Positions 3,627 to 43,339 of a stretch of DNA of 64,000 nucleotides are shown here, in pieces. The stretch lies in NCBI RefSeq assembly GCF_002177135.1, contig NZ_MWPH01000002.1:186001-250000 (forward strand), given 5' to 3'. Position numbers and translations under genes: made by a program. The notes below the pieces were generated by a model, which ran no database searches, was not told the origin of the DNA, and worked only from the letters and a program-made list of their open reading frames with translations. Position 1 is the stretch's first letter. Every line of letters begins with the position of its first letter. This DNA comes from Natronolimnobius baerhuensis (GTDB lineage Archaea; Halobacteriota; Halobacteria; Halobacteriales; Natrialbaceae).

Positions 3627-3799
3627 GTAAACCGTCCGAAGCCGTCAGCAAAAAGGGTTGCGAGATAGAACCGTTTGTCAGGAAGATACACGTTCACATG
3701 GGTCCTACGATCAGCACGCACTATCTGTGTGTGCCAAAAAACAGTCATCGGCCCCAACCAGTGAACAGTTTATCATCTGTCAGGCCGTCTAGTCACTGA

Positions 3800-4771
3800 A
3801 TGTCGGAGACGAACACTGCAATCGATCACCACCTGCCAGCGACCGACGAAACCATACACAGCGTCTGGAACAATGCCCTCGAGCCAGTGCTGACGATTGA
3901 TCCCGGCGACGTCGTCCAGTTTGAGTGTCGAGATGCCACGAACGGCCAACTCACGCGAGCGTCGACGGTCGCGGACCTTCCGTCGCTGGATATCGACCAG
4001 ATCCACCCGCTGACGGGGCCAGTCGCAGTCGAGGGTGCCCAGCCCGGTGACGTCCTCTCCGTCGAAATTCTGGCACTCGAACATCAGGGCTGGGGATACA
4101 CGCTCGTCCTGCCGGGTGAGATGGGTCTCGGATTGCTTCCGGAGGAGTTTCCGGAGCCTGCGATACACGTCTGGGACCTCGAGGACGGCGTTGCGCACTT
4201 TACGAACGGCATCGAGGTGCCGATCAAGCCGTTCCCTGGAACGATTGGCGTTGCACCTGCTGCGGACGGAGAACACAGCACGAACCCGCCACGATCCGTC
4301 GGTGGCAATCTCGATATTAAGCACTTAACTGCGGGGTCGACGCTGCACCTGCCTGTCGCCGTCGAAAACGCCCTGTTCAGTATCGGCGACTGCCATGCTG
4401 CTCAGGGCGACGGCGAGGTCTGTATCAACGGCCTCGAGGCACCGATGTCCGTCACTTGTCGCTTCAGCCTGCAGTCAGATCGCTCGCTCGAGCGACCCCA
4501 GTTTGAAACGGCCGTCGCAAGTGGCCGCGACGAACCCATGTACGGCACGACGGGAGTCGATTCGGATCTCTATGAAGCGACGAAACAGGCCGTTCGAGGG
4601 ATGGTCGATCATCTCCACAGCGAGCGCGGCCTCGCGCGCGAAGAAGCATATATCCTGTGCTCAGTCGCTGTCGATCTGAAAATCAATCAGGTCGTCAACG
4701 CGCCGAACTGGGTCGTTTCGGCGTACCTTCCGGAACAACTCTTTCCGGACGAGACCGCTGGCCACCAGTGA
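3800..4771 (+). CDS. Acetamidase/formamidase family protein
   Basis: This 323-residue protein matches the FmdA_AmdA family, metal-dependent amidases that release ammonia from short amides such as formamide or acetamide. The family signatures seen are the N-terminal WNNALEPVLTIDPGD, the central GTIGVAPA and GGNLDIKHLTAGSTL, and the GDCHAAQGDGEVC region, which carries the metal-binding and catalytic residues. The protein is cytoplasmic, with no signal peptide. It stands alone between guaB and a sensor-regulator gene. The physiological amide cannot be told from sequence. Confidence 0.9.
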   Translation: MSETNTAIDHHLPATDETIHSVWNNALEPVLTIDPGDVVQFECRDATNGQLTRASTVADLPSLDIDQIHPLTGPVAVEGAQPGDVLSVEILALEHQGWGYTLVLPGEMGLGLLPEEFPEPAIHVWDLEDGVAHFTNGIEVPIKPFPGTIGVAPAADGEHSTNPPRSVGGNLDIKHLTAGSTLHLPVAVENALFSIGDCHAAQGDGEVCINGLEAPMSVTCRFSLQSDRSLERPQFETAVASGRDEPMYGTTGVDSDLYEATKQAVRGMVDHLHSERGLAREEAYILCSVAVDLKINQVVNAPNWVVSAYLPEQLFPDETAGHQ

Positions 4772-7945: not shown

Positions 7946-8120
7946 GGGGTCGTGGCCAAGCCAGGGATGGCGACTGACTCCAGAGGCACCGCGCCCGGGA
8001 CGACACTCCAGACTGATATACTGATCGGACACCTGATCAGTGTCCGTGTGATGACCCTCTGGAGTTCCGAGGCGCACCGGAGATATCAGTCGATCGGGGG
8101 TTCAAATCCCTCCGACCCCA
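7946..8120 (+). tRNA. trnW: tRNA-Trp (CCA) with intron
   Basis: The acceptor strands GGGGTCG (7946-7952) and CGACCCC (8113-8119) pair, with discriminator A8120. The anticodon stem ACTGA/TCAGT is 7973-7977 with 8086-8090, the anticodon CCA is 7980-7982, and the T-arm is 8096-8112 with loop TTCAAAT. An intron of about 101 bases interrupts the anticodon loop after position 37. The mature tRNA would be 74 nt, and CCA is not encoded. The large intron is characteristic of haloarchaeal tRNA-Trp and is removed by the splicing endonuclease at a bulge-helix-bulge. Confidence 0.97.
7984..8084 (+). ncRNA. Intronic box C/D guide RNA in tRNA-Trp
   Basis: The intron carries box C' GTGATGA at 8048-8054, box D CCGA at 8067-8070, box D' CTGA at 8021-8024 and a degenerate box C near 7998-8003. 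Guide 8056-8065 is fully complementary to pre-tRNA 7977-7986. The fifth base upstream of box D (G8062) pairs with C7980, position 34. Guide 8011-8019 is complementary to 8083-8091, and the fifth base upstream of D' (A8016) pairs with T8086, position 39. This predicts Cm34 and Um39, the modifications known for the Haloferax volcanii intron. The exact splice ends could shift by one or two bases. Confidence 0.93.
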
Positions 8121-8388
8121 TTTCCTCACCGCGAACAACGTCGTGAGCGGTGCATACTGCTCGAGAGAACAGAAACTCCTCACTCGAGTCGTCGACGATC
8201 CGTTCGAACTGATACCAGAGGCCGAGCAGAATAGCAAAGAAGACGACACCTAATCCGACGCGGAGGCCGATCTCCTTGAGCCCGGTCGCTTCTGCGTGGA
8301 CGAGTCCACCGGCCCAGTCGCCGATGAGGACCGCGAACCCGGTCGCGACGATCACCATAATGAGGTGCCGATCAGTCGGGATATCCAT
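8086..8388 (-). CDS. Small membrane protein overlapping tRNA-Trp 3' exon
   Basis: The 100-residue form starting MDIPTDRH has two hydrophobic segments (LIMVIVATGFAVLIGDWAGG and a second around IGLRVGLGVVFFAILLGLWYQF), then a soluble acidic tail. An upstream in-frame start at 8484 would add 32 residues; the 8388 start is favoured because the extension is uncharacteristic. The last residues come from the antisense of the tRNA T-arm, so the gene converges with and overlaps tRNA-Trp by 35 bases. No family is recognised. Confidence 0.6.
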   Translation of the reverse strand: MDIPTDRHLIMVIVATGFAVLIGDWAGGLVHAEATGLKEIGLRVGLGVVFFAILLGLWYQFERIVDDSSEEFLFSRAVCTAHDVVRGEEMGSEGFEPPID

Positions 8389-18253: not shown

Positions 18254-18338
18254 GCCGAGATAGCCTAGCCCGGCCAAGGCGGTAGATTCGAAATCTACTG
18301 TCCTCACGGACTCGGGAGTTCAAATCTCCCTCTCGGCG
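18254..18338 (+). tRNA. trnS: tRNA-Ser (CGA)
   Basis: The acceptor strands GCCGAGA (18254-18260) and TCTCGGC (18331-18337) pair, with discriminator G18338. The anticodon loop TTCGAAA gives anticodon CGA, a long variable arm of class II type is present, and the T-arm is GGGAG-TTCAAAT-CTCCC at 18314-18330. CCA is not encoded. A copy of its 3' tail recurs 148 bases downstream. Confidence 0.96.
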
Positions 18339-18722
18339 CTTTTACAACACCAATTCCGATGAGCGACGCATAGCGGCGCGAATCACAGACAGGTGCTGTA
18401 AACCGATACAGAGGAGATTTGAACGAGGTCAGGCGCGCACAACGGAGCGGGCACGTCTGGACGTTGTTCAAATCTCCCTCTCGGCATTGTTACGCCGCTT
18501 AAGCCTTCCTACTACAACTCGAGCGACGAGTCTGACTGCCGACTCTCGAGCAGTCAGACCACCACGTTGACCCAGGCAACGAACCCAGTAACCGCGGTCC
18601 ATGCCCGTCATTCTCAGGGGCCTTTTTTATTCGTACTGGGCTGGTCGGAGAACCGTGTTCGTGACTATAATCTCGAGGTATCCGCAGTCTGTGATCGCGC
18701 CGGAACAGTGGGGTGAGAGGCG
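18339..18722 (+). other. Gene-free region after tRNA-Ser(CGA)
   Basis: It holds a T-rich stretch directly after the tRNA (CTTTTA, a likely terminator), the tRNA-tail hairpin at 18411-18485, and a T-run (CCTTTTTTATT, about 18611-18621) that could end or start transcription before the Fe-S protein gene. No coding frame was judged real. Confidence 0.5.
18411..18485 (+). repeat. tRNA-tail hairpin of tRNA-Ser(CGA)
   Basis: Bases 18466-18485 repeat tRNA positions 18318-18337 (T-loop to acceptor end) exactly, 20 of 20. Bases 18411-18424 are an inverted copy of the same tail (GAGGAGATTTGAAC), so the two strands can pair over at least 11-12 bases. The 41-base loop contains an inner stem of CAGGCG with CGTCTG. 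The same arrangement follows tRNA-Val and tRNA-Leu in this window. Confidence 0.85.
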
Positions 18723-22002: not shown

Positions 22003-22170
22003 ATGTGATGAACTGCGACTACGTTCGTCGCTGAATTTCGCATCCAGCCGGGTCGCCCCGACTTCCTCTATCCTCGTGCGGCGGTGAGACGGAATCTCGT
22101 GCCATAGTATCTCGTTCTATCGAACGACTGCGACTTAAACTCGCCGGTTTCACACCTCGAGTGCGTTTCG

Positions 22171-28288: not shown

Positions 28289-28361
28289 GGGTTGGGACAG
28301 AGTTGAACCTCGCCGAGACGTGCGCGCTGCGCGCGACTCGTCTGGTTCAAACTGCCCCAAC
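28289..28361 (-). repeat. tRNA-tail hairpin of tRNA-Val
   Basis: On the tRNA-Val strand the copy at 28308-28289 repeats the tRNA tail (28425-28406) with 19 of 20 identities. Bases 28361-28345 are its inverted, slightly diverged copy (GTTGGGGCAGTTTGAAC on that strand). The 36-base loop between them contains an inner stem AGACG...CGTCT around a GCGCGC palindrome. The inverted copy begins 44 bases after the tRNA end. Confidence 0.85.
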
Positions 28362-28404
28362 GTGACGATGCTGTCGCTCACGAATTTGTTCGCGACAGAA
28401 GTAG

Positions 28405-28479
28405 TGGGTTGGGACAGATTTGAACTGTCGACTTCCTCCGTGTGAAGGAGGTATCATAACCGGACTAGATCACCAACCC
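28405..28479 (-). tRNA. trnV: tRNA-Val (CAC)
   Basis: On the minus strand the acceptor GGGTTGG (28479-28473) pairs with CCAACCC (28412-28406), with discriminator A at 28405. The anticodon stem CCTCC/GGAGG encloses TTCACAC, giving anticodon CAC. The T-arm is present with loop TTCAAAT. CCA is not encoded and there is no intron. A stem-loop made of copies of its 3' tail lies downstream. Confidence 0.96.
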
Positions 28480-43143: not shown

Positions 43144-43228
43144 GCAGGGATAGCCAAGTCAGGCCAACGGCGCAGCGTTCAGGGCGCTGTCTCGTAGGAG
43201 TCCGCAGGTTCAAATCCTGCTCCCTGCA
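43144..43228 (+). tRNA. trnL: tRNA-Leu (CAG)
   Basis: The acceptor GCAGGGA (43144-43150) pairs with TCCCTGC (43221-43227), discriminator A. The anticodon loop TTCAGGG on stem CAGCG/CGCTG gives CAG; a long variable arm and T-arm are present. It lies between rpo3 and rpl18e, the known haloarchaeal arrangement of a tRNA-Leu within this ribosomal region. A copy of its tail follows. Confidence 0.96.
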
Positions 43229-43263
43229 CTTTTCCGGTTCGTCTGATAGACGAGCCGTGAAAA

Positions 43264-43339
43264 TGCACCGTGCAGATTTGGGCTACGGGAGTCGGAGCGG
43301 TTATGCCGTCTCCCGGCAGTTCAAATCCTGCTCCCTGCA
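43264..43339 (+). repeat. tRNA-tail hairpin of tRNA-Leu(CAG)
   Basis: Bases 43319-43339 repeat the tRNA tail 43208-43228 exactly, 21 of 21. Bases 43264-43280 form a diverged inverted copy (TGCA...GCAG-ATTTG). The 38-base loop contains an inner stem of CGGGAGTCGG with CCGTCTCCCG, 9 of 10 pairs. It lies 36 bases after the tRNA end and before the rpl18e operon. Confidence 0.85.

Follow-up and report, generated by a model that had tools for sequence, protein, structure and literature searches.

Among described systems, those closest to the locus studied here include the tRNA attachment sites of the T-loop type that tyrosine integrases use (Williams 2002, as cited in PMC11078007; archaeal review, PMC8371274). 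Their core lies in the T-arm and 3' end of the tRNA gene, the tRNA tail is restored after insertion and a direct repeat is left, and they bound kilobase elements with genes. CIMEs are decayed ICE/IMEs that keep cargo between att repeats, contain no integrase or transfer genes, stack at the 3' end of a gene and have no conserved inner structure (PMC5704250). MITEs, including haloarchaeal ones, are short, non-coding and palindromic, and are probably mobilised in trans. Integron cassettes, which are also known from archaeal integrons (PMC9668308), form arrays from a fixed docking site. Their attC sites are imperfect palindromes with a conserved stem and a variable loop, which can fold a double-stranded core from one strand and are recombined by a tyrosine recombinase.

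The window analysed here is a 64-kb stretch of DNA (G000:C2:186001-250000) in the 3.91-Mb source genome (G000). Several of its tRNA genes are followed by a unit consisting of two hairpins (hp1 and hp2) and two copies of the tRNA tail, one inverted and one direct. The working of these units resembles that of a T-loop tRNA attachment system, and partly resembles CIMEs and integron arrays. The direct repeat begins in the T-arm and runs to the tRNA 3' end, which is the feature of T-loop integration, and integrases of that kind occur in the same genomes. In contrast to ordinary T-loop sites with their kilobase elements, however, the units are non-coding double hairpins of about 100–150 bp with no integrase inside, and they stand behind about half of all tRNA genes, often in tandem. 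Like CIMEs, the units have att sites without integrase or transfer genes. One type of hp2 (type III) is common to units and integrase elements, as decay could explain, but the units hold no residual genes, and their two hairpins are conserved and accompanied by an extra inverted core. The units differ from MITEs in that neither transposase-type terminal inverted repeats nor short duplications of random targets were observed, and in that they insert site-specifically at tRNA T-loops and show a 19–20 bp tail repeat. Unlike integron cassettes, the units dock at tRNA genes instead of attI, have no cargo, no linked IntI identified and no clear mismatch strand bias. The crossover box of attC has the consensus GTTRRRY, which the unit core GTTCAAAT/GTTCGAAT does not fit.

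tRNA tails and hairpins in the window and the source genome

tRNA-Ser(CGA) locates at 18254-18339 on the plus strand (ARAGORN, RF00005). Its tail from G53 to base 72 (18318-18337) reads GTTCAAATCTCCCTCTCGGC, and an exact second copy is found at 18466-18485. Three parts lie between them on the same strand, which are the hp1 module (18340-18409) with the stem TTTACAACACC...GGTGCTGTAAA, the inverted T-stem/T-loop arm (18410-18424, AGAGGAGATTTGAAC) containing the inverted copy GAGGAGATTTGAAC at 18411-18424, and hp2 (18425-18465, GAGGTCAGGCGCGC...GGGCACGTCTGGACGTT), a 41-base loop with a stem of its own and a covariance-model match at C2:204409-204482 (E 1.2e-13). The predicted fold of the unit reached -46 kcal/mol, compared with a mean of -30.3 for shuffled sequences (z -4.8), and none of 200 shuffles was as good. 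The z values at the Val and Leu loci described below are -3.9 and -4.1.

Behind tRNA-Val(CAC) (28404-28479, minus strand, ARAGORN), the unit is present in the identical order on the minus strand: hp1 (28371-28398, CTGTCGCGAACAAATTCGTGAGCGACAG, with tandem G.A), the inverted arm (28345-28364), hp2 (28309-28344, covariance-model match C2:214292-214360, E 4.4e-11) and a direct tail copy with one mismatch (28308-28289). The order is again the same behind tRNA-Leu(CAG) (43144-43229, plus strand, ARAGORN), with hp1 at 43230-43263, the inverted arm at 43264-43281, hp2 at 43282-43318 (match C2:229268-229335, E 5.3e-8) and an exact direct copy at 43319-43339, all on the plus strand. The exact tail copy, the inverted copy and the stemmed loop that the preliminary description reported behind tRNA-Ser(CGA) are therefore all in place, and so is the same order behind the other two tRNAs. 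Its term "family of three" holds for the recurrence but not for the size, which is far larger: 31 units were segmented in the source genome, and the family is order-wide.

An intron-containing tRNA at 7946-8120 (plus strand) was missed by ARAGORN but matched RF00005 with 45.4 bits; from its long intron, it is probably tRNA-Trp. The hp1-type hairpin CACCGCGAACAACGTCGTGAGCGGTG follows it at 8127-8152 on the same strand (C2:194132) without a direct tail copy, and is regarded as a vestigial unit. An Rfam 15 scan of the window gave only tRNAs and leuA-Halobacteria RNA above the gathering score, and no family for the units. The leuA-Halobacteria RNA (RF03001), a known cis-regulatory RNA, is at 22030-22082 on the minus strand.

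In the source genome, the 3' end of about 25 of the 42 tRNA genes (from G53 to base 72/73) is repeated about 67–160 bp downstream when a looser cut-off is used (25 of 42 at 72–159 bp by one criterion), and some further copies are degenerate. With the strict cut-off (at least 15 of 17 tail bases, no more than 400 bp from the tRNA), the own tail was found downstream of 19 of 41 tRNAs and upstream of 0 of 40, and tails of other isotypes were found in 10 of 1564 cases. A chance repeat was rejected on these counts, and the earlier view that the copy is not a lone chance attachment site is borne out by them. All tRNA loci of the source genome were covered. The identity between tRNA and copy rises from background to 0.92–1.0 at G53 and stops at the tRNA 3' end (source genome, its congener G001 and named loci). 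The distances of the copies in the source genome are narrow, with quartiles of 91–127 bp.

The layout of a unit is tail>-hp1-<tail-hp2-tail>. Units are about 70–160 bp long, contain neither coding sequence nor integrase, and are often in tandem, with up to 5 units per array. hp1 comes first after the tRNA, its start is often T-rich, and it contains GCGAACAAnnnCGTGAGC (tandem G.A). This motif occurs 15 times in the whole source genome, and the places matched are behind tRNAs, including the intron-containing tRNA of the window, or in displaced units. In every unit, both cores have the T-loop side toward hp2 and the acceptor side toward hp1, so that a dumbbell fold is expected for the unit (core> hp1 <core hp2). 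The inverted arm tracks its own tRNA in the T-loop and T-stem (z 5–6), while its acceptor part shows weak tRNA specificity (z 1.6–2.2). Palindrome correction is a known process, and such correction by template switching could have shaped the acceptor part. Ambidextrous insertion was also considered and rejected, as type-I hp2 holds a single orientation relative to the tRNA.

Gain, loss and distribution among haloarchaea

The units were compared between the source genome and its congener G001. The unit number is unequal at up to 20 of 42 orthologous tRNA loci, a rough and threshold-dependent figure, and alignments directly show the differences at about a dozen loci. At Gln(TTG) and Leu(CAA), G001 has an extra unit of 104–113 bp that is absent from the source genome, where near-clean empty sites are found and the flanks realign. 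An older, degenerate tail copy lies further downstream of Gln(TTG) in both genomes. At Ala(CGC), two units are present in the source genome and none in G001, which has the empty site. Empty sites in a relative are also a mark of T-loop integration. An extra tRNA-proximal unit was observed at Ala(GGC), Ser(CGA), Ser(TGA), Lys(TTT), Asp and Leu(TAA), and the old unit is shifted downstream at several loci. Exchange of hp2/hp1 modules was found at Leu(TAG), Arg(CCT) and Ile. At Leu(TAG) and Arg(CCT), the differing segment sits between the inverted cores, so not all gains are simple tRNA-proximal insertions. At Ile, hp1 from one unit is fused to hp2 from another. The inverted cores thus also join in exchange or homologous deletion.

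With a covariance model, 32 matches with E of 1.6e-5 or lower were obtained in the source genome, nearly all directly behind tRNAs, and 57 of 61 relatives were positive (0–45 matches per genome). In the phylum-wide sample, 44 of the 45 genomes of the same order were positive, compared with one weak match among about 202 others. The sole unit-less genome of the order in this sample is G145, while 10 units are present in a sister species of that genus. The hosts include Haloarcula, Halorubrum, Halobacterium, Halorhabdus, Natrinema, Natronomonas, Halosimplex and Halococcus. The exact type-I pattern was found in named haloarchaea in a locus sample picked by a sequence pattern that fixes the T-loop and inner hp2 bases; 113 of its 123 matches follow a same-strand tRNA by no more than 400 bp, and one more is at 401 bp. 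Matches away from tRNAs are mostly at contig ends or displaced by insertions. Stricter filters were applied in the searches spanning more than 40 genomes, and unit counts depend on the threshold.

One unit is carried by the 828-kb plasmid of Natronorubrum bangense (L206). In Halosimplex salinum (L131, about 3740-3800) and Halorubrum rubrum (L158, minus strand), units stand behind a tRNA 3' half that starts in the anticodon loop, which suggests that they were displaced by integrative elements of the anticodon-loop class. The type-I and type-III unit patterns had no match in 2.9 million viral contigs, the integrase of the Val element described below had none in viral contigs, and BLAST of two units against plasmids and phages gave no match either. 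No description of the units was found in the open-access literature, subscription papers being outside the search. They apparently form a widespread, undescribed family of miniature mobile elements docking at tRNA genes. A small mobile element copying the ends of tRNAs was rightly listed among the roles first proposed.

Pairing of hp2 and its link to integrase elements

In an alignment of 128 units, which was made to fit the structure and whose members were in part chosen by a sequence pattern, 97.5% of the cells pair and 10 of 14 pairs have changed on both sides. The hp2 pairs covary; the covariation score is 0.269 versus 0.097 in shuffles, and 0 of 500 shuffles reach it. Base-pair covariation, the lack of which the preliminary description would have held against its own proposal, is thus present, and the units share with attC the character of a palindromic site with covarying arms. 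The hp2 helix (helix 2) has 734 Watson-Crick, 4 G.T and 2 A.C pairs, and its two outermost pairs, which are not fixed by the search pattern, have 237, 2 and 1, respectively. Because wobble pairs in hp2 are no commoner than A.C, a constraint at the DNA level (a palindromic binding site or a DNA hairpin) is favoured over an RNA helix, arguing that hp2 works as DNA rather than RNA. In contrast, helix 1, formed by the arms, has 44 G.T versus 3 A.C, a bias for which the fixed tRNA arm and the search pattern are confounders. In the strand test of G.T versus A.C mismatches, hp2 was symmetric and the T-stem comparison gave 49 versus 59, with no bias in either.

Large elements are present at the same tRNA genes. 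In the source genome, a 23.66-kb element in tRNA-Val(TAC) (G000:C2:1164956-1188616, L075/L076) lies between the tRNA and an old unit. A tyrosine integrase is located at its distal end beside the T-loop repeat (Pfam PF00589/PF02899 match on the integrase query), and a second, Xer-like recombinase is near the proximal end. An element of about 4.9 kb in tRNA-Pro(TGG) (G000:C3:57956-62968, L030, L077) displaced a complete unit, and its repeat matches from the T-stem onward only. The terminus of the Val(TAC) element is CTGAGGTTCTGAAAC-TTT-GTTTCAGGTTCTCAGGTGTGG/TTC, the same hp2 type as in type-III units (ACCGAGGTTCTG...CAGGTTCTCGGGCGTGG/TTC). For the type-III hp2 pattern, 77 exact matches are listed, spread over 49 of the 121 genomes that represent the family, compared with 0 for the reversed-pattern control. 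Type-III units stand behind at least 14 isoacceptors, and their arms follow each tRNA.

Relatives of the Val integrase were found in 111 of the 121 genomes. The type-III hairpin adjoins a T-loop core 110–190 bp from the integrase start at 5 of 30 inspected loci, the integrases being 45–100% identical, and no inverted core was seen next to hp2 in the inspected integrase elements. Only type III is tied to integrases; for the commoner type-I hp2 (AGTCGC...CGTCT), no integrase element bearing this arm turned up. In a relative (G026), a 3.0-kb element in Gly-TCC with its own, different integrase has a whole unit in its attachment region, and near-identical units flank the element. This element offers a concrete route for units with the right tail to reach a tRNA, which is delivery in a larger element followed by loss of that element. 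Among named genomes, an integrase within the same 8-kb locus as a unit was found only at L239, where it lies upstream of the tRNA.

Candidate insertion mechanism and rival explanations

Judged from sequence, the most probable explanation (about 70%) is integrase-dependent insertion of minimal non-coding elements at tRNA T-loops, either in trans or by delivery inside larger elements. The recombination core would be the T-loop/T-stem of tRNA genes from G53 onward, and one unit would be core>-hp1-<core-hp2. A tyrosine recombinase from larger integrative elements may act in trans and join the T-loop core of the unit to that of the tRNA, with hp2 serving as the putative attP-type arm. The tail of the unit would replace, and thereby restore, the tRNA 3' end, and the old tail would move downstream as the direct copy. 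Repeated insertion could produce tandem arrays, as a rule with the newest unit nearest the tRNA. Units may also ride in the attachment region of larger elements and remain after those are lost. The explanation draws on the tRNA-specific placement, the G53 boundary, presence and absence between congeners, mostly proximal addition, arrays, module exchange, the shared hp2 and the one integrase element with a unit, all of which are observed in the sequences. Since units have no integrase, an enzyme from elsewhere must act on them, as the shared hp2 suggests. That this enzyme acts, that units are excised, the physical form in which they move and the absence of a host benefit are our inferences. A double-stranded circle of 100–150 bp would be hard to form, and direct excision would need a special route or delivery in larger elements. 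Integron-like cassettes docked at tRNAs are a possible but less likely variant: each unit would be a single-stranded DNA dumbbell, and a tyrosine integrase would recombine its folded core with the matching T-loop, building arrays with the newest unit first. Its tail core would be closed by hp1 on the acceptor side and by hp2 on the T-loop side. The strand test gives no support to this folded single-strand version.

Passive scars are an unlikely origin, although several observations suit them. The units would then be remnants of ordinary tRNA-integrated elements, CIMEs in the extreme case, whose inside was deleted so that attL and attR adjoin, accreted in tandem. The same tRNAs hold the large elements at Val-TAC, Pro-TGG and, in the relative, Gly-TCC, the type-III hp2 end is common to both, and both CIMEs and accretion in tandem have been reported from bacteria (PMC5704250). 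However, deletions would not converge on the architecture of hp1, inverted core and hp2 with narrow distances, nor on covarying Watson-Crick stems or the same hp2 behind many isoacceptors, and the inspected integrase elements have no inverted core beside hp2. The preliminary description had considered that the copy might be an ordinary att site belonging to a full integrative element; such elements with an integrase and the same hp2 arm do exist, but they do not account for the conserved hp1/inverted-tail/hp2 unit as ordinary att debris. Enzyme-free template switching, in which fold-back replication at the tRNA tail yields the inverted and direct copies, would account for the fit of the inverted arm to its own tRNA. 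It is scarcely likely, since hp1 and hp2 are homologous modules common to several tRNAs and species, and the G53 boundary and mostly proximal addition suit site-specific recombination.

Two roles listed in the preliminary description are not supported. A functional RNA in the tRNA trailer (terminator, processing signal, antisense or tRNA-mimic small RNA) fits the location behind the tRNA with a T-rich start, the strong predicted folds, the tandem G.A and U.U features and the G.T excess in helix 1. Nevertheless it is improbable, because many tRNAs have no unit, unit presence is unequal at many orthologous tRNAs of congeners, hp2 is nearly all Watson-Crick with equally rare G.T and A.C pairs, which is not how a conserved RNA helix looks, the G.T excess of helix 1 has confounders and Rfam gave no match. 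A host-beneficial decoy or spare tail, which shields tRNA genes from integrases or repairs them after imprecise excision, would explain a ready-made T-loop/acceptor tail beside the tRNA. It is very unlikely, since larger elements lie between tRNA and unit, indicating that they insert in the tRNA itself rather than in the downstream copy, and copy number varies freely between congeners.

Nearly all sampled haloarchaeal genomes contain units, which follow up to half or more of their tRNA genes, and many tRNA 3' ends appear to have been repeatedly replaced by incoming DNA. Units provide dense natural arrays for studying site choice by tRNA-targeting integrases, and connect miniature elements that code for nothing with one specific family of integrases, whose attP hairpin can be tested. 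Should they use a folded single strand, they would join integrons and some phages as a second natural system of tyrosine recombinases working on hairpin DNA. At one further locus (L194, minus strand, about 280-430), tRNA-Asp is seemingly broken exactly at the T-loop by an inverted arm and hp2 without tail>-hp1, possibly a deletion product.
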